Source of the DNA: Zygnema cylindricum
Taxonomy: Eukaryota; Streptophyta; Zygnematophyceae; Zygnematales; Zygnemataceae
Assembly: GCA_037447655.1 (NCBI GenBank)
Contig: JBBHKE010001623.1
Coordinates: forward strand, 67,949-131,948
Direction: 5' to 3'
Length of the DNA: 64,000 bases
In this document: piece by piece, positions 1-55,792 of the stretch
How positions within the stretch are numbered: position 1 is the stretch's first letter
Layout of the letters: every line of letters begins with the position of its first letter
Program-made: the position numbers and the translations under genes
Notes under the pieces: generated by a model
The model's input: only the letters and a program-made list of their open reading frames with translations
Told to the model about the DNA's origin: nothing
The model's database searches: none

Positions 1-292
1 ACAATTTAGACTATCTGGATAAGACTACCGGTTATTGCGGGTGTGACAAATGGCAGGTACCAGGATCAAATCTTGGACCTGGCAAAACTATCTTTTAGAG
101 AAAACCCCCTATAAAACAACTGTCTGTCTCCCTCTAGACAGCACAAGCAGCCATGGCTAACTCCTCCTCCAGTCTTCAGTGACTGCGACAAGTGTGGGGA
201 CTTGAGGAGGAGTTAGAGGCAGGCTGTCAATATCTACTATTTTGCTTTTTATTTTGCAATCTCTATACCTAGAAAATACTTGAATTCCAACA
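1..292 (-). mobile_element. copia-type LTR remnant, cut by window edge
   Basis: The right end reads as an LTR terminus on the minus strand (TGTTGGAATTCA starting at 292), followed by the TATTTTCTAGGT stretch also found near the starts of the LTRs of elements A and C. It contains the tRNA-like/hairpin module described separately. No internal element sequence lies next to it, so it is a solo or truncated LTR. Confidence 0.6.
8..243 (+). ncRNA. candidate LTR-antisense Pol III unit 1 (tRNA-like head + hairpin)
   Basis: An A-box-like TGGATAAGACT (16-26) and B-box-like AGGATCAAATC (62-72) lie 46 bp apart, which is tRNA spacing. An 18-bp hairpin stem follows at 157-216: CTAACTCCTCCTCCAGTC pairs with GACTTGAGGAGGAGTTAG around the loop TTCAGTGACTGCGACAAGTG. 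A TTTT run follows at about 240. The parts are seen in the sequence; transcription by RNA polymerase III is inference. Confidence 0.4.
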
Positions 293-300
293 CATCATTC

Positions 301-655
301 TGTGTTGACCGTTGAAATTCCGTTTTTCTTCGCGAACAGCCGATTGCAAAACGACATTTAATTTTGTCCGTTGAAATCAAATGTTGTTTCATTCATTTCG
401 TGCGGTACCACACGTTTTCATGTTTTGTTTCATCCCGCTAGGCGCTAAATGGAAAATGTCGTCGCGTAATTATTTAAATACTTATCAAATACAATATAGA
501 TATTGTTTCATCAAGATCTATCGGATAAGGTGGACTGCTACTCCGTACGGCTGTTGTTCGGAGGTCACATCAGTTGTCGGTGACTACGACAAGTATGAGA
601 ACTGTACGATGCTCATAGGCTGACTAAGAAGATAAAATATAAAATAACATTTTTC
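301..655 (-). mobile_element. truncated LTR of element-D family
   Basis: Extended similarity to the element D LTR (about 50260-50710), including the shared GTTGAAATCAAATGTT and TTTCGTGCGGTACCACA blocks. The A-box/hairpin module is present but the part between the B box and the hairpin is shortened. The hairpin is at 571-604 (CAGTTGTC against GAGAACTG). The right end is near TTTTTCAAC at about 650. Confidence 0.6.
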
Positions 656-8540: not shown

Positions 8541-8843
8541 CAACTTAGCATTGGTCCTAGTCTATTAGGATAAAGCTGACCGCTACCGGTCAACTTGACG
8601 AACCGCAGGTACCGGTATCAAATCTCTGGTCCGTCAAGTATGTTTTTAGTAACCTACTAAAAATAGCTGTTTGTTGAACTAAGGCAGCCATGGATCAACC
8701 TCTCTCTCTTACCTTCAGTGACTACAACAAGTATGGGAGTTAGAGAGCGGAGGTGGAGGCAGGCTGTCCGTCCTTTTTCTTTTTCCTTTTATAAAAACAT
8801 ATTTAAACCTAGAAAATACTCCAGAAATCGATAAATTTCAACA
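8541..8843 (-). mobile_element. copia-type LTR remnant
   Basis: Ends on the minus strand in TGTTGAAATTTATCG at 8843, preceded by the same TATTTTCTAGG block as the other LTRs. Contains the A/B-box and hairpin module. Confidence 0.6.
8558..8778 (+). ncRNA. candidate LTR-antisense Pol III unit 2
   Basis: A-like box TAGGATAAAGC (8566-8576), B-like box GGTATCAAATC (8614-8624), hairpin 8699-8753 with loop core CAGTGACTACAACAAGTATG and stem CTCTCTCTTA against TTAGAGAG, then T runs at about 8770. Spacing and order match unit 1 although most bases differ. Confidence 0.4.
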
Positions 8844-9485: not shown

Positions 9486-10483
9486 TGCTGAAATCCCTAG
9501 ATTTAGGGGAGGTATTTACTAGGTCTTAATTAAAATAAGAAAGAAAATAAAAGAAGAGGCAACTTGCCTCCACCTTCTCTCCCAGACCCACATACTTGTT
9601 GTAGTCACTGAACGAAAGAGAGGGCGGTGGAGCCATGGGTGCCTTAGCTCCATAGGCAGGGCTTAAGAGTGACCTAAGTCACTCTCAACCAAAAAGGTTG
9701 AGTCCGGCAAGACTCAAACCTCTGACCGGTAGGGCGAGGCGTAGCCGTCAACCCTTACTAGTCTGCCGTAATAGTCCGTTAGGATACATAGGTTTCGATA
9801 GCTATTTAAACAATAGATAGACGACTAATCCGATTAACGAAATTACAAATAGGATACATAGAAACTAGTTGGGAAATTAAGTGCGCACGAAACAAATGTA
9901 TCGGACATTTGTTTTGAACGGCTAGGAACTAAAGCCGACTTAGATCCGACAGCTCACATCATCGCCGAGATCATGGAATGACCGCTTTGGCGGTTTGCGG
10001 ATGTTACATATCCTAGCAACACGTGGCAATATATCATTGGGAAGCCGTAATCCTAGGGAGCGTGAGGACAAGTCCGAAGAAGACAAGCGTCCATTCCATG
10101 GCCTTGTCGTACACAGGCCGTACAGAAAGTATATCGGCCATGGTACTTTTCAGTACTATAAAGTCTTCTGATTGGTCTCGTATTTTAGTAGATAGGGGTT
10201 GTGAGAGGGTTTGGGACTTAGTGGATTGAGGAGGTAGCCACCTCTCTCCTAAGAAGCTTGTATAAATATTGGCATCTTTGCCGCTTGATAATTAATCCCC
10301 TGGTAAGGCGATTTCAGTGATTCTTTTTGCTGTTGACTCAGGGGAGTCTAGACTGCACAGGGGTGCAGTCAAGTTATCTATTTATCTGCTAGGATCGCAG
10401 TTGCTTTCGTTGAAAGTGAGCTAGTCAAAAAACTACCTAGAGGCTTCCTCATTCTTCGTCCAAATGGAGGACACTGGATTGCA
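9486..10483 (+). repeat. 5' LTR of element A
   Basis: Starts TGCTGAAATC and ends GGATTGCA. Likely promoter TATAAATATT at 10261-10270. An in-frame-looking ATG (10463) sits 21 bp before the LTR end, mirroring element D where gag starts inside the LTR. Carries the antisense tRNA-like/hairpin module. Confidence 0.93.
9544..9768 (-). ncRNA. candidate LTR-antisense Pol III unit 3 (element A 5' LTR)
   Basis: On the minus strand: A-like box at about 9751-9761, B-like box GGTTTGAGTC (9711-9720), hairpin 9565-9634 with stems CTCCACC/GGTGGAG and CTCTC/GAGAG around loop core CAGTGACTACAACAAGTATG, then an A/T run at 9544-9552 that would be the terminator. Transcription is inference. Confidence 0.4.
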
Positions 10484-13946: not shown

Positions 13947-16087
13947 GAAAGAAACCGAATGTTTCCCACTTGAAAGTATTCGGTAGTCAAGTTTACAGTC
14001 TTGACACAGAAAAGAAAAATTGGAAACTAGATGCTAAAGGGAAACCGGAATATTTTGTGGGATATGATGAGGATGTCAAGGGTTATAGAGTCTATGACTT
14101 AGCTAAACAAGATATCATTTTGGTAAAGCATCAAGTTGTCATGGATGAATGGAAGTCTTTTGATCCCTTCAAATACACTTGGAAAATCAGAATCAGCTTT
14201 GAGTCCGAGAGTGAAGAGGACTTAGATCTTCCCAAAAGGGACACTAGTGAAAACATTATTGTAGATCCATGGGAGATAAAAGATGGGGGAGATATACCAG
14301 AATCTCCTCATATTCCTACACCCTTTGAGGAAGAGGAGTCAGAACCGGTTCCCATGGATAGGGGAGCTGATGAGACATTTCGGAGGAATCCAAGACTTCC
14401 CTCCATTCCAGCTTCGGACTTTGAGGGAGGACGGAGGAGAAGCAAAAGGCTTCAAGAAAAACAGGCTGATTGCAAGGTAACAAAGCTTTCTCATCCAGAT
14501 GAGCTTGAGTCATACTCGGAGGCAATGGACAGTCTGCAGAAAGAAAGGTGGGTCAGAGCCATAAATGATGAGATGGCTTCAATCATGGAGGCAAATACTT
14601 GGGAGCTGGTGGACTATGTTCTAGATAGAAAACCCATTGGGTGTAAATGGGTATTTAAACTGAAACTGAATCCAGATAACACCATTCAGAGATTTAAGGC
14701 TCGGCTGGTGGCAAAAGGGTTCACTAAAAAACAAGGGAAAGATTATGAGGAGACCTTTGCTCCGGTAGTTCGATTCCCATCTGTAAGGATTCTCATTAGT
14801 CTAGCAGCAGCGCAAGACATGGAAATTCACCAGATGCATATCAAAACCGCCTTCCTCAATGGTGAACTAGAGAAAGAAATCTTCATGCAGCATCTAGAGG
14901 GCTTTGTAGAAGAAGGAGAGGAAAGCAAAGTCTGCAAACTTATAGAGTCCTTATATGGACTAAAGCAGGCCCCCAAACAGTGGAATAAGAAACTAGATGA
15001 ATTTCTTACCAGTCTAGGGTAAATTCGGATCATTTCTGACCATTCGATTAATATGATTGAGGATGAGAATGGTGTGATTTTTATTGCAATTTATGTGGAT
15101 GATTTGCTGGTATTGAGTAAGTCTATGGAGAAAAAAAAAAGGTTAAAGAAAGATCTTGGAAGTAGATTTGACATGAAGGATTTAGGAGAGGCTAAATATA
15201 TTCTGGGAATTCAAATGGAAAGAAATACGAAGAAGAGGATCATCAGACTTACACAGAAAGAGGCTATAGGAAATATGCTGGAGAAATTCCAGATGGAGAA
15301 TGCAAACAGTTGTACCACTCCCATGGACTTGAAGAAAGTAAGTGATGGAAGTATAAAACGGGGAGTGATAATGTTAGATGATCAGATGAGTTCTAAAGAG
15401 AGGCAGTATATAAAGTCTATTTGCTACAGACAGGTTGTAGGAAGTTTGATTTACTTTATTAATTGTACTAGGCCTGACTTAGCTGCAGCAGTTGGAGTCA
15501 TCAATAGGAGTCTTAATGATCCTAAAAAGAGAGACTGGGAGGCAGCCAAGAGAGTAATGAGATACCTAGTGGGAACTAGGGATCTATGGTTGCATTTGGG
15601 AGGGGAGCACACTGACATCACTACTTGGAGTGATGTTAGTGATGGTGATGCACCTATGAGAAGATGTACTTCTGGGTATGTATTGTATGTGGGGGAAGGT
15701 GCTTGTTGTTGGAGCATCAAGCAACAAAAGGTTGCTGCTCAGTCCACTATGGAGGCTGAGTACATAACCTCTTGTTCTACAATGAAAGAGCTGATGTGGG
15801 TGAAGTCATTGTTGCAAGAATTGGGGTACATGAAGAAGGGAGTAAATGAAGTGTTTTGTGACAATCAGGCTGCAATTGCAATTGCAGCCAATCCAAAACA
15901 CCATTTCAAAGCTAAGCATATGGATATAAGATTGAGCTTTGTGAGGGAAAAAGTGGAAAATAAAATTGTGAATTTGGTATATAGAAGTGATGGGGAAATG
16001 GTGGCTGATATTATGACAAAGCCTGTGCCGTCTCCTAAGCTAAAGTATTGTAGAGAAAAATGTGGATTAAAACAGAAATTAAATTAG
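13947..16087 (+). pseudogene. element A reverse transcriptase and RNase H, broken
   Basis: Copia RT: PIGCKWVFKLKLNPDNTIQR, then FAPVVRFPSVRIL, LYGLKQAPKQW and the catalytic YVDDLLVLSK. A stop at 15020-15022 and a short shift before 15053 split RT ahead of YVDD. RNase H follows, with TMEAEYI and FCDNQAAIAIA, and the end motif DIMTKPVPSPKLK. Only one main break interrupts this part, so it is the best-preserved pol segment in the window. Confidence 0.9.
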
Positions 16088-16105
16088 ACTAGAAAATAAG
16101 GGGAG

Positions 16106-17100
16106 TGTTGAAATCACTAGATTTAGGGGAGGTATTTTCTAGGTCTTAATTAAAATAAGAAAGAAAAGAAAAGCAGAGGCAGCTTGCCTCCACCTTCTCT
16201 CTCTGACCCACATACTTGTTGTAGTCACTAAAAAAAAGAGAGGGCGGTGGAGCCATGGGTGCCTTAGCTCCATAGGCAGGGCTTAAGAGTGACCTAAGTC
16301 ACTCTCAACCAAAAAGGTTGAGTCCGCTAGGACTCGAACCTCCAACCGGTAGGGCGAGGCGTAGCTGTCAACCCTTACCAGTCTGTCGTAGTAGTCCGTT
16401 AGGATACATAGGGTTTGATAGCTATTTAAACAATAGATAGACAACTAATCCGATTAACAGAATTACAAATAGGATACATAGAAACTAGTTGGGAAATTAA
16501 GTGCGCACGAAACAAATGTACCGGACATTTGTTTTGAACGGCTGGGAACTAAAGCCTACTTAGATCAGATGGCTCACATCATCGCTGAGATCATGGAATC
16601 ACCGCTTTGGCAGTTTGCGGATGTAACATAACCTAGCAACACGTGGCAATATGTCATTGGGAAGCCGGAATCCTGGGGAGCGTGAGGACAAGTCGGAGAA
16701 GACAGGCGTCCATTCCATGGCATGTCGTACACATGCCGTATAGAAAGTACATCGGCCATGGTACTTTTCTGTACTTTACAGTCTTTTGATTGGTCCCGTA
16801 TTTCAGTATATAGGGGTTGTGAGAGGGTTTGGGGCTTAGTGGATTGAGGAGGTAGCCGTCTCTCTCCCAAGAAGCTTGTATAAATATTGGCATCTTTGCC
16901 GCTTGATAATTAATCGCCTGGTAAGGCGTTTTCAGTGATTATTTTTGCTCTGGACTCAAGGGAGTCTAGACTGCACAAGGGAGCAGTAAAGTTATCTATT
17001 TATCTGCTAGGATAGCAGTTGCTTTCGTTGAAAGTGGGTTACTCAAAAAACTACCTTGAGGCTTCCTCATTCTTGGTCCAAATGGAGGAACAGGATTGTA
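16106..17100 (+). repeat. 3' LTR of element A
   Basis: Starts TGTTGAAATC right after a purine tract and ends GGATTGTA. Same layout as the 5' LTR, with TATAAATATT at about 16879-16888. Terminal CA has mutated to TA. Confidence 0.93.
16164..16388 (-). ncRNA. candidate LTR-antisense Pol III unit 4 (element A 3' LTR)
   Basis: The minus strand has the B box GGTTCGAGTCC (16340-16330), a perfect match to the tRNA consensus, with an A-like box TGGTAAGGG about 40 bp upstream. The hairpin is at 16186-16254 with its conserved loop, then T runs. This is the most tRNA-like copy of the module. Confidence 0.45.
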
Positions 17101-24921: not shown

Positions 24922-25885
24922 TGTAATTCTGTGACCTCCATTGGTACGCAGAATGTCCAGCTTATGTGAAGCCTCTAGGATAGTATATGCACTTTTGACT
25001 TTGACAATGAATAAGTCCCACCGTTTGACGCAAAATCTCTGACCAACTACACCCCTGTGTAGCTTGGACTCCCCTGGGTCCGCAACAAAAAGAATCACTG
25101 AATTTGCTCACTTGACCATTAAGTTATGGCTGACCAAAGTTGGTCCATAAATACAGGTGCTCTCTGGGAGAGAGGCTGAAAAACCGAAAAATATTCTAAG
25201 TCCTAAGCTACCTCTCTAAACTTATCTCTAAGGTACTAGACCAATCATATTACTGTAAAGTACAAGAAGGTACAGGTACCGCTGTACTTCTTGTACGACC
25301 ATAGTACGGCATGGCCGGTCCGCTGACGCGTGTCAGTTTCGGAGCCGTAGTTGCTCCTCCCGTAATGTCCGCTGTCCAACCATATGTTGCCACGTGTCAT
25401 CCGCCGACATCTGCTCCGCAAACCGCCAATTTTCTATTCCGGTATTCCGACCCCACTGTGAGTCGTTCGATGTAGACATTTTAATTTCGTCCGTCGAAAT
25501 TAAATGTTAATTCGTAATTTTCGTGCGGTCTCGATTTCGTGCGACGCGGTATGTTTCCATGCATAAATCGTTTTGTAACTTGTTAAATGAAATGTCCGGC
25601 GTTGTACGACTTTAAATTATTCTCGCGCCATATACATGTATTGAATCTTCAAGGCTTACTGGATAAGGTGTACAGCTGTTCCGTACGGTGATCATTCAGA
25701 GGTCACTGGGTCAATTCTCACAAGGTGCAGTAATATATTTTGCAAAGAAAAACTGCCCTGACTGATTTGCCTGTCTCCTTTAGTTGGAGCAGGCAGCCAT
25801 GGCTTTATACAGGTCCTCAGTGACTACGACAAGTATGAGGGCTGCAGTAAGTCCATAAGAAAAGACTACAAATTACCTCTATTTT
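24922..25885 (-). mobile_element. solo LTR of element-D family
   Basis: TGTAATTCTGTGACCTCCATTGG at the left end is the same LTR terminus as element D (46028, 49622), and similarity continues through the tRNA-like/hairpin module. No internal sequence follows. The right end is not sharply defined and no target duplication was found. It interrupts the gypsy remnant. Confidence 0.75.
25652..25885 (+). ncRNA. candidate LTR-antisense Pol III unit 5
   Basis: A-like TGGATAAGGTG (25660-25670), T-arm-like GGTCACTGGGTCAATTCT with B box GGGTCAATTCT (25708-25718), hairpin 25810-25844 (loop AGTGACTACGACAAGTATG), TTTT at about 25882. The clearest tRNA-like head among the D-family copies. Confidence 0.42.
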
Positions 25886-26823: not shown

Positions 26824-28052
26824 TGTTGAAATTTATGTATTTTCTAGGTCTGTATTGGAAAAATAAATAGAGTAAGTCAGCAAAGGCAACCTGCTTCTCG
26901 CTCAACTAACTCCGGTCCCCATACTTGTTGCAGTCACTGAAGACCAAAGAGAGAGCTAGAGCCATGGCTGTCTAAAGAGGATAGGCTAATTCGTAGTTTG
27001 TACCAAAATGGTTGTGACGGTTCTAAGATTTGATCCTAGTACCTACATCCTATAATAGACGTTAGCTTTAGCGTATAGCTTAGAGTAAACAGTGGCATAT
27101 GTAGGGTACAATAGGTATTTATAAGTGGACAAAAAGAGAATTCTAACTAACTAACAAATAACCAAAAACTACCCTACACCAAATTTGAACCATGGTTTAT
27201 GGTTATATTTGTAAAGGTATGCCTTATCCAGTAAGGCGTTGACGAAACGATACACGTTACGGGTTTCAAAGAAATATAAACGTTAACGCAACAGCTAATT
27301 AACGGCAGACTAGGAGCAATTCATGCATGTACGCGAATCTGAACCGTGTAAAATATGTTTTGATCGGACGGCCGCCATTGTAGCCGCCACGCGAAGTGAG
27401 CTTTTGGCGGCATTTGGAGATAGCGTCACGCGGTGCCACGTGGCGCCACATTATTTGATACCGGAGAAGATAGGAGGAGGAACCATGGCTCGCGATTTCA
27501 CAAGTGTCACCTTGAAGACCATGTCGTACAATGGTCGTACAATAAGTACATCTCCTATTGTACCTTCTTGTACTATATAGTGTTCCTATTGGACTAGGGT
27601 TTAGTAGTAGGTAGTCGTGAGTAGGCAGGCCAAGACTTAGTGATATCTAGGTACCTCTCTCTAAGAGAGCTTGTAACTATAAATGTCATCTTTGAACAGC
27701 AGTAACTTACTGCTCGGGTGAGAAAATTCAGTGATTCTTTTTGCTACGGACTCAAGGGAGTCCAAGCTACACAGGGGTGTAGCTGGTCAAAGTCTTTGCG
27801 TGCCAGGGTGGCACTTATTCAGTGGGAAAGTCAAAGTGGGGAATATTGTCCAAAACACATATTCAAACTTTGCATTCTGTGGTGGAACTGAGCACACAAA
27901 AGGTCTTCTCTTCACAGGGGTGAAGGTGTATTGGGGTTCTAATTATCAAGGGATCATTCATTTGGGTTTATATCAACTTGGAGTGGGCACTATCTAGATT
28001 AGCTTTTTTTGGATCTGCGAATTCTGTGGGCAATGTAGCCCATAGAATTTCA
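26824..28052 (+). repeat. 5' LTR of element C
   Basis: TGTTGAAATT...AGAATTTCA. Likely TATA box CTATAAATG at about 27675. Differs from the 3' LTR by scattered substitutions and a ~10-bp indel in the GGTGCCACGTGGCGCC region. Confidence 0.93.
26859..27090 (-). ncRNA. candidate LTR-antisense Pol III unit 6 (element C 5' LTR)
   Basis: Minus strand: B-like box AGGATCAAATC at about 27033-27043 with an A-like box about 38-43 bp upstream, hairpin closing GGTC/GACC (26914-26945) around CAGTGACTGCAACAAGTATG, then a T run. Repeated in the 3' LTR. Confidence 0.4.
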
Positions 28053-29716: not shown

Positions 29717-30053
29717 AAGAGTTAGCATCTGGGTGTGTGTCGCAGATTGGGGATGGGGCTGGTTTTTTGAATTGCAAGAGGGAAATCGGATTCTGTGTGG
29801 ATGGAAAAGAGATGAGTGGGATAAAATCTTTGCTTGGATTTATGGAAAAATTTTGCTTAATAAAATATGTGATCAACAAGATGGAATGTTTATTTCAGCT
29901 CATCTAATGGACCTTTTAACATACGAGAGTATTCACTAAAAGTTTTATGAGGAGAAAAGAAAGAGGAAAAAGAAAAGAAGAAAAAAAAAATATTATATAT
30001 ATATATTTTTTTAGTGGGAGTTGAAAAGAAAGTAGACTAGAAAATAAAGGGAG

Positions 30054-31270
30054 TGTTGAAATTTATGTATTTTCTAGGTCTGTATTGGAAAAATAAATAG
30101 AGTAAGTCAGCAAAGGCAACCTGCTTCCCGCTCAACTAACTCCGGTCCCCATACTTGTTGCAGTCACTGAAGACCAAAGAGAGAGCTAGAGCCATGGCTG
30201 TCTAAAGAGGATAGGCTAATTCGTAGTTTGTACCAAAATGGTTGTGACGGTTCCAAGATTTGATCCTAGTACCTACATCCTATAATAGACGTTAGCTTTA
30301 GCGTATAGCTTAGAGTAAACAGTGGCATATGTAGGGTACAATAGGTATTTATAAGTGGACAAAAAGAGAATTCTAACTAACTAACAAATAACCAAAAACT
30401 GCCCTACACCAAATTTGAACCATGGTTTATGGTTATATTTGTAAAGGTATGCCTTATCCAGTAAGGCGTTGACGAAACGATACACGTTACGGGTTTCAAA
30501 GAAATATAAACGTTAACGCAACAGCTAATTAACGGCAGACTAGGAGCAATTCATGCATGTACGCGAATCTGAACCGTGTAAAATATGTTTTGATCGGACG
30601 GCCGCCATTGTAGCCGCCACGCGAAGTGAGCTTTTGGCGGCATTTGGAGATAGCGTCACGCGGTGCCACATTATTTGATACCGGAGAAGATGGGAGGAGG
30701 AACCATGGCTCCCGATTTCACGGTGTCACCTTGAAGACCATGTCGTACAATGGCCGTACAATAAGTATATCTCCTATTGTACCTTTTGTACTATATAGTG
30801 TTCCTATTGGACTAGGGTTTAGTAGTAGGTAGTCGTGAGTAGGCAGGCCAAGACTTAGTGATATTTAGGTACCTCTCTCTAAGAGAGCTTGTAACTATAA
30901 AGGTCATCTTTGACCAGCCATAACTTACTGCTCGGGTGAGCAAATTCAGTGATTCTTTTTGCTACGGACTCAAGGGAGTCCAAGCTACACAGGGGTGTAG
31001 TTGGTCAAAGTCTTTGCGTGCCAAGGTGGCACTTATTCAGTGGGAAAGTCAAAGTGGGGAATATTGTCCAAAACACATATTCAAACTTTGCATTCTGTGG
31101 TGGAACTGAGCACACAAAAGGTCTTCTCTTCACAGGGGTGAAGTTGTATTGGGGTTCTAATTGTCAAAGGATCATTCATTTGGGTTTATATCAACTTGGA
31201 GTGGGCACTATCTAGATTAGCTTCTTTTGGATCTGCGAATTCTGTGGGCAATGTAGCCCATAGAATTTCA
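30054..31270 (+). repeat. 3' LTR of element C
   Basis: Near-identical to the 5' LTR; the hairpin is at 30144-30175 and the antisense module spans about 30089-30320. Confidence 0.93.
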
Positions 31271-31275
31271 CCCTC

Positions 31276-32410
31276 AAACCGCGTACAACCTTTGTTTCAA
31301 AGGAATTTGTACATATGAGTGCACTAAAACCCACAAAAATAGGATAAACCTAGATTATTAAAGTGTTTGGTAGTCTCAAGAGTCTAGTGGGAGCATGGAT
31401 AGTACCATGTCTTTGTTGACTTCACCACTTAAAACTATTTTATGACATACATACACGTTGAATAAACCCCTTTTAAAGGTAGGTGTTTGCAAAGGTATGG
31501 GAACTAAAGAATAAATGTCGACCGTTATTAATCCGACAATCAGTGATTAGACAAAAAGACTAACAAGGTGTTGGAAAATTATCTAAGAACTTTTGTGAGC
31601 CCCTATCATGACAATAGGTTCGATGAGTATGCCGTCAACCATACATAGTAGGAAAGTACAAAATCTACACGGTTAAGCTTTGTCTCAATTAACATCAACA
31701 GACCGTTTGGAACAGGCGTGGGAAGAAAGAACTAGTTGAGGGTGGTTTATGTTGCCCACTATTGCTTTCACGAATAACTACAAGATTTTCCATGAAACGA
31801 ATATTTGTTTAACGAAGGTTCACATTTGACAGAAAATGTATATTAAGGATAGTAGGCAATAACATGTGAACTGAAGTAGGTCACTATTATTAAATACCAA
31901 ACATCTGGCCTTTCAACTAACCTACATTAAGATAATTAATAGCAGTAGACTGCTCAATATTTTATATTGTCAACTTATGGTATGGTTTGTTACAAATATA
32001 CCTTCCCAAAAAATAATTATTACATTCGGTGCCACGCGAGTTTACTTTAACCACAAAACACCAACGGTTGGTTATAACCACCACCACAGCTTTTGTGAAA
32101 TAGAGGGGCTTACTAGAACAAGTCACTATAACTCGTCTAGTGAAAGTCCTTTACATTTTAGACAGTTCCAAATATTTGTTGAGTGTCTTGCAAATTTGAC
32201 GGGGGGGCGGTAGTGTATATGTGCGCAAGGATTCCACATTCACATTGCAAATGCAAAAGGAGTTGTCGTCAATGAGTTGAAATCACCGAAAACATGAACA
32301 ACCGGCTAATTTGGCGGCAACCTACAATTGATCTAAAACCGGACTATTCTCAACAATATTTATATGTTTGTTGTAAAATTATACTGATTAAGGGTGATTG
32401 TCCCAATTCC
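31276..32410. other. spacer, probably 5' part of a decayed copia element
   Basis: No readable domain. Its position upstream of the RT remnant makes a degenerate gag/integrase region possible, but I cannot show it. Confidence 0.3.
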
Positions 32411-32419
32411 CGAGTTTGG

Positions 32420-33570
32420 ACTGGAACATATTCACCCAATGGACGTGTAGACAACTTTTTTAAACGGTGATCTAGAGGAGGAAATGTATACGAAGATTTT
32501 AGATGGAGTTGGGTCAAAAGAAGGGAAGGTAGAGCGTTTGCGAAGGTCTTTGTACGGGCTAAAAGAGGCACCACATACCTGGTATATGCGTTTGTGTATT
32601 GTTCAACCGACTTTAGGTTTATAGTAGTAGTTTATGATTCGCGCATTTACATTAAGGGGGAAGGAGAAGATCAAATTATCCTCTTAAGAAACGTGGATGA
32701 TTTTGTGATGACTTTCGAGAGTTTGCAGAAAATCAATAAACTGAAGACTTATGTTTGCCTTCGTTTGAAGGTAACGGACTTGTTGGGCATTGAAATCATT
32801 CGTTTTTCTAAGAGCGGCATTAAACTCAGTTAAGCTCAATATTGTAAGAAATTGATAATGCACTTTAAGATAACCGATGCGAAACCGTTTTTTACGCCTA
32901 CGGAAACTAAGCGTCATCTGAGGAAACCGGAGAAAGAATTGCCTGTCGACGTTCCATATCGAAAGGCTATCGAGAGCTTAATGAACTTAAGTGTTGATAC
33001 TCGCTCGTATATTGAGGCATCAGTTTCCAACGTTAGCCGATATTATCAAATACGAAAAAACTACGTTGGGAGGTTGTCAGACACATATTTCTATACTTCG
33101 TCCGTACAATCGAAGTCGGTTTAACATACAAATTAGAATGAACCTTATAGTGCATCAAGTATTCTAATTCAGATTAAGGAGGCAATGTTGGCCTTGGAAA
33201 GTTGACGTTCGTACATGCATTTGTATTTCGTGGAGATACCGTTTGATAGAGTTCGCGTCCCCAACTGTGTTTCATTAAGTCTGTCGGAGGTTGATTATAT
33301 AATACCTTGTCATGAAACATCAATTTGGCTAAAAGAGATGTTCGTTGAATTGATGATTCCAATTAGTTGCGGGATTCTTTTTACAGTTAGTATCAGATAT
33401 ATGACACTTGTTAAGAATCATGTCATTCACAAACGTACCGAGCATTATCTGTATTCAGCGACACGTTGTGCGTGATTTAGTTAGATCTAAGAAAATTGAA
33501 TTTATATATGTGTCAACTTTAGAAGAAGCTGCACAGTTTCCAATTAAGACGACTTCTTGTCATGTGCTTG
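32420..33570 (+). pseudogene. degenerate copia RT/RNase H, second lineage
   Basis: Split frames read FLNGDLEEEMYTKILDGV and SLYGLKEAPHTWY, then NVDDFVM (the YVDD site altered to NVDD), LRLKVTDLLGIEIIRF, and RNase H pieces NCVSLSLSEVDYI and HKRTEHY. Motif order matches copia pol, but the sequence is far from elements A, C and D. A possible LTR start, TGTTAGGATTAATG, lies at about 33640 after a purine patch. Confidence 0.8.
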
Positions 33571-35700: not shown

Positions 35701-36900
35701 CGGCCGTTAACCGTCTGATGGACTTGACCGCTTTAGGCAAGGAGGGAATTTGATGTGACAAGTTGACGACGCGGACGGCCACGGCAGGAGTACGGATTAC
35801 AGAAAATTAGAAACGCGGTTGGAAACTTCAAACTCTAACCAGACAAATCTGGATAGAAAATCTAAAATGAACGGTCAGGATGCTGCGCGTGTGGCCCCTC
35901 TCCGCGCGAACTGTTTCTTTCCCAACTCAAAACAGTAAAAGTTCATTCTAACCAGCAAACGAGACGATTGTCATGAGATATCTTGCGCCTCATTGGTCAA
36001 TCAGCAGGCTATCATCACTATTTACTTCCTGTGTAATTTTCCGCCAACGGGGTTCAGCAAAAACTGCAACAGTTCCGTACAAACATGTACGGTTTTTTAC
36101 TTTTCTACTGTACAGCAACGTACAGCAGTACGAAGTCACGTCACATTATTGCACTGCAGGTCACGTACCATGGTAACATTCCGTCACGTCACACCACAAG
36201 TTGCTGAATTGCCACGTGGCATCCTGTGTTACCGTTAATTCATTCGATTTAAGCAATTAGTTTGAGCCTGATTTAGTCGATTTATACCCCTATTTGCTCG
36301 AATTTTGCAGCTGTTTAGATTTGACAAGAGAATGAGGAAACCAGTTACACTAAAAATAATAATAATTATGAACAAAAAAAACAAAGATGGTTAAAATCGA
36401 GAAAGCGACCGAAACTAAATAAGACAAACCCTAAGTGGACGAAATATATATACTAAACAAAATGTCAAAATCCAAAAGCAAACCCTAAAAATAAACAAGA
36501 AACAAACCTAAAACCATTACGCCATAAAACCATAAAAACGTAAAAACGTAAAAATGTAAAAGCATAAAACCAAACCAAAATAAACCATTTTACGCAAATA
36601 CACGTAATAAAGTAAAGGACAATAAGTTATTCTTCTTAAACCTTGTTTTTCTCTTTCTGGCTTACCTTTTTTTTTTTGCTGCCCGTCGCCGCTTATTTTC
36701 CTTTTTGTAACTTATTTTCCTACTTGAAACATTGTAACCAACGCTTTTTTTTTTTTTCCTTTTCTGTAATTACTCTAAAAAATATAGGAAAGTATACAGG
36801 AGAGAACCTTTCTAGATATAAATACACAAAAAAAAACAACAAAAACTAGTTTTTCAACATTTTAGGTCAAGTTTTGCGGAGAGGTTTAGGTCATTTTTTT
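35700..36900. other. upstream region of the fucosyltransferase
   Basis: AT-rich toward the gene. Two AAACCCTAA telo-box-like motifs (about 36427 and 36482) lie here, a motif common in plant promoters; their role here is not shown. Confidence 0.4.
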
Positions 36901-37040
36901 TTTTTGTAAATTGTGTTCCTGCCTCTATACCATTCACAAGCTCTGTCAGTTACTTCCTCTCCCTCTCCCCCTCTTTTTTTTCTCTCCTCTCTTTTGCCTC
37001 CCTTCCTCCCTTTCTCTCGATCCGCACATTTACTACCTAT

Positions 37041-37042
<2 letters not shown>

Positions 37043-37083
<41 letters not shown>

Positions 37084-37138
37084 TCTCGCTCCCTTTCTCT
37101 CTCCCTCTCTCTTTCTCTCTCTCTCTCACACACACACA
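37043..37138. repeat. CT/CA microsatellite in the fucosyltransferase 5' UTR
   Basis: (CT)n ending in ACACACACAC, stopping about 20 bp before the ATG at 37158. Pyrimidine-rich leaders are frequent in plant genes. Confidence 0.88.
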
Positions 37139-37157
37139 TTCCCTTCAAGTAGTGAAA

Positions 37158-39152
37158 ATGAAAAATTATTTTTCAGCAAGTTTTCGACAATTTGTTGTCT
37201 TTGTTGGACTATTATTTTTCTTTTCTCAAGTTATCAGTACATTGGAGGAGGAAAAACCAAAAACCTATTACAATACTTTCAGTCTCTTGAAGAAAGATGA
37301 ATCGATCATTTCGCAACAGAATTTTCACAAAAAAAATCCTTTTTCTCAGCCAAAAAAAATATTTCGTCGATTATTTCAAGAGGTCGACCTCGACGAAATC
37401 GAAAAGTTTCAAGATTCTGAAATTTCAACAAATTCGGATAATGTAAGAAATAAAAGAGAAGGCGAAGGAGGTGGTGAAGGAGGAGAGGGAGGAGGAGGGG
37501 GAGGGGGAGGAGGAGGAGGAGGAGGAGGAGGACAAAATGGTGTTGAGGAAGTTATTTCTTCCAAAAGAGATTCTCCTTCAAATTTTGAGGGGAGATTAAG
37601 GGTACCGAGAAAAGTTACTGAACTTTCTCAATTATGGCATTTACGGCGACACAAACGAATCGCAAAACGATCTCGTTCGAATGAATGCTGGTCACGATCT
37701 GAACGAAATCATTACCCTTATTTTTCGAAACATTCAAGTTCTCGTCCTTTACTAGACAGACTTGAAAAATATTCCGAACACCATCGAGTTTGTACATCTT
37801 TTGTAAAAAATTGGACGGCTCTTGTGCTAGGGGACGAAGAATATGTGAACCCCGATGCGAATTTTGAGGCAAAAAACCAATTTTTGGCGAGTAATTGTAA
37901 GTTTCTGATTCACGATCAAAGTTCTCCAGGACTCGGAAATCGAATGCAAGCTTTAGTTGCCGCTTTTACTTATTCCTTGTTAACGAATAGGGTTTTTTTA
38001 ACAACAGACTGGCCCTTGAGTATAATGTTATGTCAACCTTTTGAGGGCTCCGATTGGTACGTGGAAACTTTTCGTCACGACGCGTGGCCCGAAAATGATA
38101 GAATGAGAATTGAAAACATTGTCGGGGATGATTTAAAATGGTCAAAAACGTTGAAAAAAATCGAAGATCGAAGAATTTCGCCTTCAGCGTGGTTTGACCT
38201 TTCTTACCGATGGAAATCAAAAGATCACAATTTTTTTTGTTCGAAAGTACAAGAAAGGCTCCAAAATGTGAGAACTCTAGTAATTAGTACGGAACAATAT
38301 TTTGTGGTAGGGTTATTTGGGGTACGGATTTTTCGAGAAGAGCTGGAAAATTTGTTTCCGGACTTGACTCCTTTTACCCATATAGCTCGATATATTCTAC
38401 ATCCCACAAATTTTCTATGGGAAAGAATTACGAGGCTTTACAATATGCATTTTCAACATTCGACGCGACGAATCGGTTTGCAAATTCGATCTTTTCAAGA
38501 AAACGACACTTATGCTCACGAAAAAGTTTTAGATTGTTTAGTAAACATAAGTAAAGTCGTAGCTCCTCCAATTTGGCCGTCCGCATGGACAGATATGATG
38601 CTTTGGAAAAAGGGATGGTGGGAAAAAAATGGAGAAACTGTCCAAAAAATTGTCGAAAACGGAGCCTCGGAACATATTCTTATTTTTGTTACATCATTGC
38701 ATCAACATCATTCGGATTTTCTACGGGAAGCTTATACGGAAGGCGTTTCTATGGACGGCAGTTACGTTAACGTACATTCTTATACGAGTCAAGGATCCGA
38801 GGATCACGACTTAGAAAAGGATTATCGTGCTTTTACGGAAATATTTTTGCTCAGTTTTTGCGAAACTTTACTCACGAGCCATTTTTCAACGTTCGGATAT
38901 GTGGCCGCGGGATTGTCGGGGAACCAACCGTACCTTTTAAATATTATAAAAAAAGGGGCGTGGACTTTTGCCGTACCTTTTGAAGAGAATGGTAGACCAG
39001 TTTGTGAACTTTCGGTTTCTTCGGAGCCTTGTTCTCATTTTCCTCCGAAAGATAGAAATTGTGGGGAAAGTTTGGAGGAGAGAGAGGTTTTTCCCGAGTA
39101 TTCGCAACCATGTCAGGATGCCTTTTTTGGGTTAAGGAATCTGGCTCGGTAG
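37158..39152 (+). CDS. FUT: GT37 alpha-fucosyltransferase (xyloglucan/cell-wall fucosyltransferase family), intronless
   Basis: Transfers fucose from GDP-fucose to cell-wall glycans in the Golgi lumen. 664 residues from the ATG at 37158; an upstream GTG in the same frame is unlikely to be used. Residues ~10-26 (VVFVGLLFFFSQVI) form a signal anchor, as in type II Golgi enzymes. Family motifs in order: RSERNHYPYFSKHSSSRP region, PGLGNRMQALVAAFTYSLLT (about 254-273, GDP-fucose site), IGLQIRSF (about 438-445), LTSHFSTFGYVAAGLSG (about 572-588) and SSEPCSHFPP near the C-terminus. A Gly/Glu run coded by GGA/GGG repeats (about 103-127) sits in the stem and makes the protein longer than the ~500-560 usual for the family. 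Exact acceptor (xyloglucan, arabinogalactan or other) cannot be told. No stops or shifts. Its last codons are repeated downstream. Confidence 0.93.
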   Translation: MKNYFSASFRQFVVFVGLLFFFSQVISTLEEEKPKTYYNTFSLLKKDESIISQQNFHKKNPFSQPKKIFRRLFQEVDLDEIEKFQDSEISTNSDNVRNKREGEGGGEGGEGGGGGGGGGGGGGGGQNGVEEVISSKRDSPSNFEGRLRVPRKVTELSQLWHLRRHKRIAKRSRSNECWSRSERNHYPYFSKHSSSRPLLDRLEKYSEHHRVCTSFVKNWTALVLGDEEYVNPDANFEAKNQFLASNCKFLIHDQSSPGLGNRMQALVAAFTYSLLTNRVFLTTDWPLSIMLCQPFEGSDWYVETFRHDAWPENDRMRIENIVGDDLKWSKTLKKIEDRRISPSAWFDLSYRWKSKDHNFFCSKVQERLQNVRTLVISTEQYFVVGLFGVRIFREELENLFPDLTPFTHIARYILHPTNFLWERITRLYNMHFQHSTRRIGLQIRSFQENDTYAHEKVLDCLVNISKVVAPPIWPSAWTDMMLWKKGWWEKNGETVQKIVENGASEHILIFVTSLHQHHSDFLREAYTEGVSMDGSYVNVHSYTSQGSEDHDLEKDYRAFTEIFLLSFCETLLTSHFSTFGYVAAGLSGNQPYLLNIIKKGAWTFAVPFEENGRPVCELSVSSEPCSHFPPKDRNCGESLEEREVFPEYSQPCQDAFFGLRNLAR

Positions 39153-46027: not shown

Positions 46028-47107
46028 TGTAATTCTGTGACCTCCATTGCTACACAGAATGTCCAGCTTACGTGAAGCCTCTAGGATAGTATATGCACTT
46101 TTGACTTTGACAATGAATAAGTCCCACCTTGGGAAGCAAAAAATCTGACTGACTACACCCCTGTGTAGCCTGGACTCCACTGAGTACGCTGCAAAAAGAA
46201 TCATTGAATTTGCTCACCTGAGCATTAAGTTATGGCTGTTCAAGACAGCATATTTGTATTGATGGCCTCCAGGAGAGAGAGGAATTTTCAATATTTTTCT
46301 AAGTCCCGAAAAACACCTAATAGCTATTCTAAACCAATCAAAATAGAGTACCCTAATTATCGTACATATAAAGTACGGAAGCCGCCGTACTTTATGTACG
46401 GATATATTCGGCACCACTTCCGGTTTGCCACGTGGCTAATAAGTCAACGTCATTCTGTCCCTTTCTCTTCCGGTCATCAAATAGGATGACGCCACGTGTC
46501 ATTTCCTCCCATTTCGCTGAGCTGCTCCCAGATAGTTGTTCCGGCATAACGGCACTCATGCGTGTCGTCCGTTCTTTTTACAACGATCGATTTCATCTGT
46601 TGGATCTGACGTCGCCGAATAAATGTTGACCGTTGAATTTCGACGGTCAATATTCCGTGTTGATCGCGTGAAATTTATTCTTGTTTTGCGAACCGTCGAT
46701 CGCGACATTTAATTTCGTCCGTTGATATTAAATGTTTGTTTCATTTATTTTGTGCGGTACTGCATTTCGTGCCGTACCATACGTTCCATGTTGCGTTTCG
46801 TTTCGTAAGATGTTAAATGAAATATGTCGTGTATGTTTCTTTAAATATCTATCAAGTACACAAGTATGAATTGGAACTTTAATACCTAACAGTTAAGACG
46901 AGCGCCTGTTTCGTACGGCCTTCATCTGGAGGTCACGGGATCAAAGCCTGTCTGTGGCAGTTATGTTTATGTTTTGCAGGAGTTTTGTCTTCTGTCTATC
47001 CTCTCATCTGTCTAAGAGAGCCATGTCATGTCAATTCTCAGTGACTACGACAAGTATGACAACTGTAGGACTAAAAAAGGTAGAATACAAAGTATCACTT
47101 TTCAACA
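46028..47107 (-). repeat. 3' LTR of element D
   Basis: Reads TGTTGAAAAGTG...GAATTACA on the minus strand. Joined on its outer side to the LINE end at 46027. Confidence 0.9.
46882..47102 (+). ncRNA. candidate LTR-antisense Pol III unit 7 (element D 3' LTR)
   Basis: A-like CAGTTAAGACG (46890-46900), B-like GGGATCAAAGC (46937-46947), hairpin region 47031-47067 with loop AGTGACTACGACAAGTATG and a weaker stem than its sister copy, TTTT at 47099-47102. Confidence 0.38.
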
Positions 47108-47319
47108 ATTCCCTTATTTTCTAGTCTATCTTTTCTTTTAGTCCACACTTCTCCCTACAAATTTTAATTTGGGAGAAGGAACCGGCTTAGTCATCATATC
47201 TGCTACCATATCTCCATCTTGTCTATATTCCAAACTAATTATTTTATTCTCAACCTTCTCTCTAACAAAGCTCAAACGAATATCCATATGCTTTGCTTTA
47301 AAGTGATGCTTAGGGTTTG

Positions 47320-49641: not shown

Positions 49642-50713
49642 TGGTACACAGAATGTCTTGCTTATGTGAAGCCTCTAGGATAGTATATGCACTTTTGACT
49701 TTGACAATGAATAAGTCCCACCCTGGGACACAAAAACATTAATTAATAACACCCCTGTGTAGATTGGACTCCTCGAGTCCGTTGCAAAAAGAATCACTGA
49801 AATTGCTAACCTGAGCATTAAGTTATGGTTGTTCAAAGACAACATATTTGTACAAATGGCCTCAGGGGAGAGGACTTTTCCAAATTTTGTCTAAGTCCTG
49901 AAAACTCCTAATAGCTACTCTAAACCAATCTACAAGAAGTACCTTAATAATTGTACATACAAAGTATAGCAGCCGTCGTACTTTATGTACGGATATATTT
50001 GGCACCATTCCGATCTGCCAAGTGGCAAAATAGGTCAATGGCATTCTGTCCGTTTTCTCTTCCGGCATCCTATAAGATGATGCCACGTGTCATTTCCTCC
50101 CATTTCGCCGAACATCTCCTAGATTGTCGTTATGACATACCGACACTCACGCGTGCCGTCCGTTCTTTTCACGGTGATCAATTTCAGCCGTGCGATCTGA
50201 CGGCGCGCCGAATAAATGTTGACCGTTGAATTTCACCGGTCAAATTTTTGTGTTGAACTTTGAATTGCGACGGTCAACATTCCGTGTTGACCGCTTAAAT
50301 ATTCTTCTTGCTTGGCGAGCCGTCGATCACGACATTTAATTTCGTCCGTTGAAATCAAATGTTCGTTTCATTTATTTCGTGCGGTACCACATTCCATGTT
50401 TCATTTCATTCCGTAAGTCGCTAAATGGAATATGTCGCTATGCCATTTTTAAATAGTTATCAATTATAATGTATGTATCGATTTATCAAGACGTAACGTA
50501 TAAGGCGGACGTCAAATCAATACGACCCTCGTTCAAAGGTTACAGGATCAAATTCTGTTTGTGTCAACATATATTTTGTAGGAGTTTTGTCTTATGTATA
50601 TCTTCTCATCTGTCTAAGGCAGCCATGGCTACCTGTCAATTCTCAGTGACTACGACAAGTATGAGAACTGCAAGACTCAAAAAAGGTAGAATATAAAACA
50701 TCACTTTTCAACA
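49622..50713 (-). repeat. 5' LTR of element D
   Basis: Pairs with the 3' LTR at 46028-47107 over its whole length with substitutions and small indels. Confidence 0.9.
50489..50708 (+). ncRNA. candidate LTR-antisense Pol III unit 8 (element D 5' LTR)
   Basis: A-like CGTATAAGGCG (50497-50507), B-like AGGATCAAATT (50544-50554), hairpin 50637-50670 (CAATTCTC against GAGAACTG around AGTGACTACGACAAGTAT), TTTT at 50705-50708. Confidence 0.4.
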
Positions 50714-52853: not shown

Positions 52854-53219
52854 CTGTAGGGATGCACAATTGCACATTGTACAATCTACACGTCGGCATG
52901 AAACTCGATCCGTTAGTCGATACGAAAAATACAAAATACATATTTTATCGCCGATAACCACCCGATGGTCATCTACCAATAATATCGGGAAACCAGACCG
53001 ATGGCCTTGACATGAACCGTACAGTACCGTACTATTCCACCAGATTTTCTCAAAACTATAAAGTACAAACCATGAAACCAAGTACAGTACTCCATAGATA
53101 TAGCTACTTGCACTTTTACGCGTTCAGTTATCCGTACGAACTGGATATCTCTCTCCATGAATTTTCAAATGTGACTTCCGTCCCACTGTCCTGAATCTCT
53201 CCAACTCCTCTCATTTCCT

Positions 53220-53280
53220 TCTTTGTGAAGCTAAACCCTAAAATACCTCAGAAACCCTAATTTTTTGGAAACCCTAAACA
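53220..53280 (+). promoter_or_regulatory. cluster of telo-box motifs before PsbP-gene exon 1, copy A
   Basis: Three AAACCCTA(A) motifs within about 50 bp directly upstream of the ATG at 53306; the same cluster precedes copy B (58690-58745). Telo-boxes near plant transcription starts are known; function here is inferred. Confidence 0.55.
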
Positions 53281-54149
53281 AATTAACACCTTTTCAACTG
53301 TTTCTATGGCTACTGTTAGTTCCTGCTCAGTTTTGTCTTTAGTCTCTCCCGGTTATGGAATAGAGAGTAAAAGTGTTAAGGAAGGAGTATTAATTTCTGA
53401 CTTCGTGTCAAAACCTGTATCCATGTTTTTGTCTTCTAGTGGTTCTTCTGTCTTATCCAGAAGAAAATTTGAAGTTTTTTCCATGTCCTCAGACAACCAA
53501 AATCGAAGGTGAGATATTTTTTCACTGTTTGACTCTGTTCGACTCTGTTGGACTCTCCTTGACTTTAATGGCATTCATTTAAAATATATTTGGTACTTTT
53601 TTCGAAATAGCATAAAATGCCTTTTAAAACCCTAAAAACTGACAACCTTGGGAGAAGCCCTAATTTCTGCAGTTTTAGGGTTTAGCATGAAAAGAGGCAC
53701 CAAAATTACTTAAGTAATAAATTAATTTCTTAAAAGGTAGATAGTTGAACTTTTCGTGTAGTTGAACTTCTCATTTAGTTGAACTTTCTGTATAGTTGAA
53801 CTTTTCATGTAGTTAAATTTTTCGTACAGTTGAACTTTTTGTATCGTTGTTATATTGTTTTTTTGTATTGTTGTTTTGTTTTGTGTATAGTTGAGCTTTT
53901 CGTATAGCTGAGCTTTTTGTGTAGAATTAAAAAATATAATTGGACTTTTTTTTGTTTCTATTTCCCGGATTTGAACGTTTTCCCGGAAAATATTAAATTT
54001 GTACTAGACCACGAATAATAGTGGCTAGACCACTATTATTTTCAGCCCGAGGGAGTGAAGATTATGGTATTGACATTTTTTTTGCATAATTTTTTTTAAT
54101 TGATATGATACGAAAGACTTTGGCCCCTAAAGGACATTGACATAGAATC

Positions 54150-54405
54150 TGTGACAACCTCAACACCACTCCCTTCCCCCTCAAAAACCTTCCCTCTTCC
54201 CTCTCATTTTCTTCCCCTTCTTCCTTCCCTTTTCCTCTTCTTTCAATTCCCTTTCCTTCCCTTCCCTTCCCTTACTTTCTCTTCCTTTCCCTTCCCTTCC
54301 CTTACCTTCTCTTCCCTTCCCTTCCCTTACCTTACCTTCTCTTCCCTTCCCTTACCTTACCTTCTCTTCCCTTCCCTTCCCTTCCCTCCCCGTCTTTTCC
54401 CCTTC
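54150..54405. repeat. CCCTT-rich minisatellite in intron 1, copy A
   Basis: CTTCCCTTCCCTTAC-type units, pyrimidine only. A shorter version is in copy B (59560-59770). Confidence 0.85.
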
Positions 54406-54783
54406 CCTTTGCTTACCTTGAATTTATTGCTCTGGTAAGTATATAAAATGTTAAATACTATGAAGCTGTTCGGGTTCGTCTTTGCATGAAATACTGGTCC
54501 TTATATTTATAGTGGTATGGTTTAGGATATTTGGACAGTGCACTTATCAACAAGAGAAAGAACTTAGAAAGAGAAAGGAAAGAGAGAGAAAGAAAGAGAG
54601 AGAGAGAGAAAAGAAAGAGAGAGAGAGAGATGTGAAAGTCAAATGTTGCTCAAGTAGATATTTTCTAAATGGAGATTGACTTGTTTAAGTCTACCTCGTT
54701 GTGAATCATTCTCAATGGCTTATGAATCCTGTTAAGCTAATTGAACAACAATATATGTTTCTTATTATGTCATATTGTACCTT

Positions 54784-55000
54784 AAGCCGTCGATCGCTAT
54801 TAAAAGAGTTATTAGTGTAAATGCGAAATTAGAATGTATAACACTAATTTAGTATAAGGAGACGTGACGGATTGCAGGCCACTTCCTTAAATAGTGTTAT
54901 TAACACTATTTTATGATTTCTACCAAAAAAAGTTGCGTCTGAATTAGTGTTATAGCGTTGTTAAATCTAATAGCGTTGAGAGGAAAATTTGGCTTTTCTA
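54784..55000. mobile_element. decayed TA-type MITE in intron 1, copy A
   Basis: GCCGTCGATCGCTATTA start and internal GGAGACGTG...GCCACTTCCTTAAATAG block match MITE 1 at 35486-35525. Present in both duplicates (B: about 60150-60340), so it predates the duplication. The right end is lost. Confidence 0.6.
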
Positions 55001-55584
55001 ATGCTTGGAAATATGGAGTTGTCATACCCTCTCTGTGTACTTATAAACAAAAATTCCAAAACAGTTGATGATGTGAACTCTTAATACAGTTAAATTTGAC
55101 TTTTCTACAGTTGAGGTTGACTCTCAATATAGGCGAGGTTGACTTTTGAAACAGTTAAAGGTCGACTCTTCCGACAGTTGAGGTTTTTTTTTCATATTAA
55201 TTTTAGGTTTTTCTTTCATATTTATTCTAGGTTTTTTTTTCATATTTATTCTAGGTTTTTCTTTCATATTTATTCTCATGTCTACATTAGGGTTTGGATG
55301 GGCCAGGAACGACCACGATAAACAATCGCGACGTGACATTTTGAAGCTTGCCACATTTAGTTTTGTCTCATTAGGTGCTTCCGTGGGTGAAAAAAATGGA
55401 AATGCGAAAGCCGGAACCTTTTTGTTTCCTCCTCAAGGATATCGTGCATATGTTGACCGTTTGGATGGATATTCATTCTTCTATCCTGATGATTGGGTCC
55501 AGGTATACATTGTCTTTTTGTACTTTCTCAGTTTCCTAAAGGTTGTCATAGGACCGTAAGAGAAGGTGTTGCTAAATTTTTTGC

Positions 55585-55792
55585 CAATTTGTTCGGTCCA
55601 GGTGTACATTGTTGTACTTTAGGTGTACATTGTTGTACTTCAGGTGTACATTGTTGTACTTCAGGTGTACATTGTTGTACTTCAGGTGTACATTGTTGTA
55701 CTTCAGGTGTACGTCGTTGTACTTCAGGTGTATATTGTTCTACTTCAGGTGTACATTGTTGTACTTCAGGTGTATATTGTCTACTTCCATCA
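55585..55792. repeat. 21-bp minisatellite next to the exon 2 donor, copy A
   Basis: About nine copies of GGTGTACATTGTTGTACTTCA. The unit resembles the exon 2/intron 2 border (GGTCCAGGTATACATTG) and starts with AGGT like a donor site. Copy B has only about 3.5 units (60911-60990), so the array has changed length since duplication. Confidence 0.9.

Follow-up and report, generated by a model that had tools for sequence, protein, structure and literature searches.

The nearest known kinds of element to the one analysed here are, as far as the cited descriptions go, Helenus, whose LTRs derive in part from tRNA, and the Sireviruses, in which non-coding motifs are conserved between copia elements. 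In Sireviruses, which belong to the Ty1/copia group, divergent elements keep motifs in their non-coding DNA, and an inverted repeat surrounds the junction of the polypurine tract and the 3′ LTR; according to the same source some classic copia elements have this repeat as well, and it is therefore not Sirevirus-specific (PMC2829016). A polypurine-tract stem-loop has been described in Sire elements, together with a call for a wider search (PMC3601003). Helenus, Ajax and Cassandra are TRIMs whose LTRs derive from small-RNA genes ('TRIMp3'), and Helenus is reported from the streptophyte Selaginella (PMC10886601).

In the U3 region of one copia lineage of Zygnema cylindricum there is a stem-loop, antisense to gag-pol, whose loop is conserved in sequence and whose stem covaries, and beside it on the same strand there is a covarying tRNA-like arm. 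As in Sireviruses, an inverted repeat is present at the polypurine-tract/3′ LTR junction (27 3′ LTRs), which makes another case beside the stem-loop described for Sire elements (PMC3601003). Whereas the Sirevirus LTR is described as carrying many palindromic boxes with a CGG-CCG core, read as regulatory DNA (PMC2829016), here one stem-loop per LTR is the rule (one locus, L021, has a tandem pair), with an invariant loop and a covarying stem. TRIMp3 LTRs are described as harbouring tRNA-like or 5S-like sequence and Pol III boxes (PMC10886601), and the present LTRs resemble them in having a tRNA-like part with a B box. However, TRIMp3 are described as short and without genes, whereas the LTRs studied here belong to gag-pol and gag-only copia elements, and here the tRNA-like part is antisense and has the loop-conserved hairpin downstream; the words 'antisense' and 'opposite' are absent from the main text of PMC10886601. 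The fungal GalEa copia elements also contain a conserved hairpin, the Conserved Hairpin Site (PMC5445492), and two aspects separate it from ours as described there. First, the GalEa hairpin stands directly after the 5′ LTR and replaces the primer binding site (PBS), whereas the present one is located in U3 and the PBS is found in 16 of 16 elements; second, the loop is the least conserved part of the GalEa hairpin and the most conserved part of this one. The arrangement of hairpin and T-arm was not found described in the literature searched, that is in titles and beginnings of abstracts among the matches listed.

The window, by which we mean the whole stretch of 64,000 nucleotides analysed, contains ten matches to the loop core AGTGACTACRACAAGTRTG with at most three mismatches, as compared with 0.03 expected by chance (100 shuffles). 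Their cores start at 178, 579, 8717, 9591 (−), 16211 (−), 25819, 26920 (−), 30150 (−), 47040 and 50645, and all ten copies of the original prediction are thus present where it had placed them. In the assembly of 352,776,454 bases (352.8 Mb) the 19-mer core has 6,464 exact matches against 17 for its reversed control, and the 17-mer core TGACTRCRACAAGTRTG has 10,404 against 22. Written as RNA, the near-invariant loop core (17-19 nt) is GUGACURCRACAAGURUG, which agrees with the earlier claim that the core is nearly unchanged among copies. Its conservation is partly built in, because every copy was found through the core; the CCATGG block, the stem letters outside the search pattern, the T-arm and the T-runs were not used in collecting copies. 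Conservation of the block GCAGCCATGGCTCTA comes close to that of the core (0.86 and 0.88, with an LTR mean of 0.594).

The genome sample comprised 110 copies, with 74 representatives. The viral loci and the loci L002, L003 and L006-L008 were left out; L002 and L006-L008 are repeats of stretches in other loci, whereas L003 is a separate copy, and its twin, at the L015 edge, likewise dropped out of the set. The alignment (A1) has 71 rows, namely the 74 representatives minus four (a false core in reverse transcriptase, one copy with Ns, and two with the left arm missing or unrelated) plus the copy with its core at 579. A covariance model of these 71 copies recovers the same ten in the window at 34.9-103.5 bits and has no further window match at E ≤ 1. 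This recovery is not independent, because two of the ten are among the 71 rows, which also include eight near or exact family members. No Rfam 15 covariance model matches at the hairpin in the window (gathering threshold) or in seven loci (E ≤ 5), and none of six spellings of the core was found in the literature searched, in agreement with the view that the motif has no name. In L021, four hairpin cores lie within 410 nt, at 8650, 8713, 8951 (+) and 9040 (−), two of them in tandem 63 nt apart and two facing each other.

The carriers are Ty1/copia LTR retrotransposons, with integrase before RT-RNase H, paired LTRs, a PBS and a polypurine tract; several encode gag and pol, others gag only. In the window, the hairpins at 9545..9655 (−, 96.0 bits) and 16165..16275 (−, 99.1 bits) lie antisense in the 5′ LTR (from near 9486) and the 3′ LTR (from near 16106) of one copia element with pol on the + strand. 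Those at 26872..26984 (−, antisense, 83.6 bits) and 30102..30214 (−, 81.7 bits) occupy the 5′ LTR (from ~26824) and the 3′ LTR (from ~30054) of a gag-only element. The short-stem hairpin at 47004..47102 (+, 54.2 bits) is antisense to a copia element with pol on the − strand, the other LTR of which contains a further short-stem copy at 50606..50708 (+, 68.1 bits). The other copies, all on the + strand, are found at 134..241 (long stem, core 178-196, 86.2 bits), 534..654 (short stem, core 579-597, the weakest copy, 34.9 bits), 8671..8781 (core 8717-8735, 103.5 bits) and 25780..25883 (short stem, core 25819-25837, 62.0 bits).

In the eight elements inspected the LTRs are ~0.97-1.3 kb long, mostly start with TGTTGA and mostly end in or beside CA. 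The LTRs of the sampled families can be aligned along their length (eight in one comparison, 32 in another), and therefore belong to one copia lineage. The families proposed originally are indeed diverged, but their membership in one homologous lineage had been missed, and the statement that every copia-type LTR has the motif is covered by the data as far as the sampled copies go, which represent this one lineage. More distant copia-like pol pieces, at 26-61% identity, are present in L022 (59-4018), L029 (3554-6243) and the window (32370-33040).

Downstream of the 5′ LTR, 16 of 16 elements (window and L015-L034) have a primer site like GGTTATGGGCCCACC, with at most three mismatches, which we take to pair with the anticodon arm of the initiator tRNA-Met of plants; half-tRNA priming by the anticodon arm of this tRNA is the mode used by Drosophila copia. 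The polypurine tract AGACTAGAAAATAAGGGGAG precedes the 3′ LTR. The inverted repeat at this place is formed by the upstream AGACTAGAAAATA, which pairs with the TATTTTCTAGGTCT-like start of U3 (window 16086-16134, 30034-30080 and 47109-47127 (−), and 24 other 3′ LTRs), and the pairing energy is −10.3 kcal/mol as compared with −4.5 kcal/mol for shuffled U3 (27 3′ LTRs). In these 27 3′ LTRs, which were chosen by a polypurine-tract match with a core within 260 nt and were not dereplicated, the core lies 50-109 nt past the end of the tract; this range replaces the 60-160 bp inside the LTR start given originally. Relative to gag/pol, 39 of 45 assignable copies are antisense and six are same-sense, with 25 more without assignment (70 in total); in the window all five assigned copies are antisense and four have no assignment, the copy at 579 not being in the count. 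The antisense orientation claimed for every copy therefore holds for most of them, with six same-sense cases. Of these, L033_6674 is a false core inside reverse transcriptase and L019_1686 is antisense relative to its own PBS; the other four lie near a gag match that may belong to a different element.

Further features of these LTRs and loci were observed. Read on the hairpin strand, further strongly conserved blocks are located in R/U5, ~880-920 nt before the core. They include GACTC...GAGTC palindromes as well as TTCAGTGATTCTT, a partial repeat of the hairpin-strand core. Gag-only elements form head-to-tail arrays that share LTRs (LTR-internal-LTR-internal-LTR) in L027 and L030, with periods of about 3.07 and 3.19 kb. 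A tRNA-like gene is located between two LTR copies in L020 (8451-8522, −; Gln, ctg by ARAGORN; 42 bits with the Rfam tRNA model).

The tip of the hairpin hardly changes while the stem changes in matching pairs, and for this reason the folded shape seems to be selected. In the 71 rows, 77.8% of the cells in the named structure are paired; the structure tested was drawn by eye from copies within the same alignment. Changes on both sides of a pair number 163, as compared with 84.7 ± 8.2 in shuffles (0 of 500 as high), and the covariation score is 0.247 against 0.187 ± 0.006 in shuffles and 0.085-0.118 in slid versions of the structure. Two of the five measures are weaker, namely the number of pairs with a both-side change (21 against 18.6, with 59 of 500 shuffles as high) and the number of pair types (66 against 61.0, with 23 of 500 as high). 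RNAalifold, unaided, returns the closing stem together with an inner helix, ACU/AGU, that encloses a loop of six bases; the covariation term is only small.

When each cluster was reduced to one medoid (24 or 17 rows), the inner seven pairs kept their signal both in the long class (0 of 2000 at 24 rows; p = 0.004 at 17) and in the short class (p = 0.003 and 0.002). The middle and basal stems also kept theirs over all rows after thinning; taken by class, the signal of the middle stem is borderline for the long class at 17 rows (p = 0.05), and in the short class it is absent after thinning. The outer stem GGCAG/CTGCC, with p 0.04 on 71 rows, has no signal after thinning and was dropped from the covariation claim. 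In a prospective test on 20 new copies, picked for differing right arms from 100 listed of 222 places, the left arm followed the right at columns 60/86 in 19 of 20, and in the 16 that remained after dereplication 25 of 32 pairs at both free positions were Watson-Crick, against 17.5 in shuffles (p = 0.0003); the search pattern also fixes TC before the core, and the new copies are relatives of known ones. The pair-preserving changes that the original prediction had proposed are thus borne out by shuffles, by thinning and by new copies. In folds of 111 nt the long class is stable (mean z −2.65 for the motif strand and −2.36 for the other strand), and the families with short stems, which make up 14 of 71 rows, are not more stable than shuffled sequence (mean z −0.31 and −0.62); despite this, the closing stem of the short class covaries. 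The distance from CCATGG to the core, measured by eye, varies from about 20 to 32 nt.

Arms that match each other could also arise without any selection for pairing, if template switching during reverse transcription or repair copied one arm onto the other, as in quasi-palindrome correction, and the loop alone were selected. The near-perfect arms of some copies, such as the one at 134..241, and the lack of wobble bias among singletons would fit such copying. It nevertheless seems very unlikely, considering that covariation extends to the seven closing pairs of the short class, whose arms offer little to copy, and that a second covarying arm, the T-arm, lies nearby.

Several other readings of the conserved sequence were rejected or set aside. 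Peptide coding from the CCATGG start is contradicted by frames that differ between families; no constant reading frame runs through the core, the ATG-core distance being 27, 20, 31 nt and others, and in the S-D-Y-D/N-K-Y frame the core bases that vary occupy first and second codon positions (all by eye). A splice site (pyrimidine tract plus CAG, GTRTG) does not predict covarying arms. A spread of the motif to viruses or prokaryotes was suggested by six exact IMG/VR and three GTDB hits, which are poor model matches: eight of the nine match the model over 16-50 of 111 positions with E 0.01-0.9, and one (L076) has no covariance-model match. Three of the six IMG/VR hits share a single protein whose reading frame crosses the site, the letters there giving SDYNKY. 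Copies that match an LTR poorly, inspected as candidate SINE-like units outside LTRs, are affected by gaps and truncation.

About 110 nt upstream of the hairpin and on its strand there is a tRNA-like T-arm with a B box, followed by a T-run, a new feature that the original prediction had missed. The B box lies at −93 to −131 and matches at 10-11 of 11 positions in 35 of 50 dereplicated copies, whereas on the opposite strand a score of 10 is reached once in these 50; the W in the B-box pattern was fixed after the data were seen. Nine of the ten window copies have a B box at 9-11 of 11, and the first T-run is seen in nine of the ten. For the copy with its core at 178, the B box/T-arm loop region is at 63..73 (+), with T-runs at 93-96 and 240-243, and no B box was found upstream of the copy at 534..654. 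B-box-like elements with 9 of 11 matches are located at 8615..8625 (+; T-run 8643-8647), 9710..9720 (−; T-run 9691-9695) and 25708..25718 (+; T-run 25738-25741), belonging to the cores at 8717, 9591 and 25819, respectively. The core at 16211 has the full 11 of 11 match, GGTTCGAGTCC, at 16330..16340 (−; T-run 16311-16315). The element of the core at 30150 matches at 10 of 11 (30256..30266, −; T-run 30235-30238), and that of the core at 26920 is the same (27026-27036, −). The cores at 47040 and 50645 each have a match of 10 of 11, at 46938..46948 (+; T-run 46972-46975) and 50545..50555 (+; T-run 50574-50577).

The five-pair T stem covaries (25 thinned copies, p = 0.0015), and the T-loops include ATCAAAT, ATCAATT and TTCGAGT among others, the first of which is presumably that of plant initiator tRNA. 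On the antisense strand G-U pairs outnumber A-C in this stem by 27:10 in the 42 copies with a B-box score of 9 or more, to which the T-arm and T-run statistics refer, and by 12:6 in the 25 thinned copies. The first T-run (at least four T) follows the B box at a distance of 12-31 nt in 42 of 42 copies, against 8.9 expected, and consists of just four T in 28 of them. A second T-run starts 56-62 nt past the core start in 26 of 35 long-class copies, against 3.6 expected, and no run of four T occurs inside the hairpin in 38 of 42. Judged from the sequence, the layout is that of a Pol III gene, followed by the hairpin and a further terminator. On the other hand, the A box scores no better than its control, and neither the Rfam tRNA model nor ARAGORN detects the tRNA-like head. 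The stretch from −69 to −29, between the T-arm region and the hairpin, is poorly conserved (0.51), and since the first T-run precedes the hairpin, a Pol III transcript could end before it.

Wobble pairs bear on the question of which strand forms the structure. Among families with at least two members, the inner eight pairs read on the hairpin strand have 27 G-U and 4 A-C majority states, or 7 and 4 when two neighbouring U-G positions are left out; an alternative grouping gives 22:9, and 11:9 without these positions. Over 51 clusters including singletons, the counts with the two U-G positions left out are 20 G-U and 21 A-C, and therefore decay looks symmetrical. Cis-over-trans duplex energies, calculated for 72 of the 74 representatives, give no clear preference, with at most a slight advantage of the element-sense strand. 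As a whole, the wobble pairs lean towards the antisense strand and fall short of proof. The original view of a selected RNA structure, read from the antisense strand or as its complement, is accordingly upheld by covariation as far as selection on a stem with an invariant loop is concerned, but not as to action as RNA or the strand.

If the sense strand were the functional one, the motif would be a cis-acting hairpin in the genomic RNA of the element, with a role in export, packaging or plus-strand priming; its complement would lie in the 3′ untranslated part, immediately downstream of the inverted repeat at the polypurine tract, and would be common to autonomous and gag-only relatives. The place of the core, 50-109 nt past the polypurine tract and adjoining its inverted repeat, suits this proposal, as does the certain existence of genomic RNA in a mobile element, and Watson-Crick covariation fits either strand. 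Export elements borne in retroviral U3 are known, such as RcRE, besides the CTE, and are described as structured RNA near the 3′ end of the RNA (PMC11379458); unlike in those, the hairpin strand here is opposite to the genomic RNA. A family-fixed A-C at columns 58/90 in several short-type copies would be a G-U on the sense strand, whereas columns 63/84 and 61/85 would become A-C there in 49 and 42 of 71 rows, respectively. By a rule of thumb, G-U is expected five times as often as A-C, and under this rule the sense strand is rejected by the families with two or more members, also when the two U-G positions are left out (p = 0.0006). Furthermore, in 16 elements the loop has no consistent complementarity to the 5′ leader: pairing of the loop with the leader was rejected as a candidate, exceeding z −2 in two of 16, L015 (−3.8) and L030 (−2.7), at different places. 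We therefore consider a genomic-RNA hairpin unlikely.

The symmetrical decay seen once singletons are included (20 G-U, 21 A-C) would also be expected of a site that works as DNA, where a protein of the host or of the element binds the loop and GCAGCCATGGC, and where the arms allow extrusion of a cruciform or folding within single-stranded cDNA. The CCATGG block, about as conserved as the core though unused in finding copies, could be part of such a site, but its spacing to the core varies, a plain protein site predicts no covarying arms, and the covarying T-arm with its excess of G-U on the antisense strand is not what a DNA site would lead to. This explanation, too, appears improbable.

The reading that we prefer, and hold tentatively as plausible though somewhat short of probable, is that the hairpin is the RNA domain of an antisense Pol III-type unit in U3. 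From the sequences we infer action as an RNA, an antisense Pol III origin and binding of a partner by the loop. The stem-loop would be under selection in the U3 of a large copia lineage, in its autonomous and gag-only members, with a loop recognised by its sequence and a stem that need only pair. The antisense strand would be transcribed as a Pol III-type unit from the tRNA-like head, and read-through of the first T-run, mostly only four T, would yield a transcript of roughly 250 nt, with the hairpin and the second T-run at its 3′ end. A partner, protein or RNA, could then dock on the loop and either aid or restrain the element. Foamy viruses and BLV make Pol III hairpin microRNAs, in foamy viruses from U3; unlike those, in which the stem arms are conserved, here the loop is conserved and the stem drifts.

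A more specific form of this reading, which we regard as rather doubtful, is that the antisense U3 sequence is a Pol III-type small-RNA gene, with a tRNA-like head and an invariant-loop hairpin, that gives the family a trans-acting RNA. If so, ~ten thousand copies would supply this RNA, perhaps as a copy-number or host-factor device, and autonomous and gag-only members alike would keep it. An antisense small RNA of this type would represent a transposon-borne Pol III gene of a kind not found in the literature searched. Non-coding LTR sequence usually drifts fast, whereas this loop is kept nearly letter for letter in ~ten thousand copies. A conserved loop within a compensated stem suggests a hitherto unrecognised step in the life cycle of this abundant group of retrotransposons, and the loop and stem provide a ready handle for finding it.

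Two features of the window apart from the hairpin copies can be added. A segment of ~3 kb, which contains 10-nt tandem arrays, is present as a direct repeat at 53105-56237 and 58568-61468, with the two units about 5.2-5.5 kb apart. At 36822-39152 (+) there is a 776-codon open reading frame with a plant-type fucosyltransferase domain (PF03254 relatives), which, in probable agreement with a streptophyte algal host, matches a Closterium protein at 35% and two other proteins at 45-48%.
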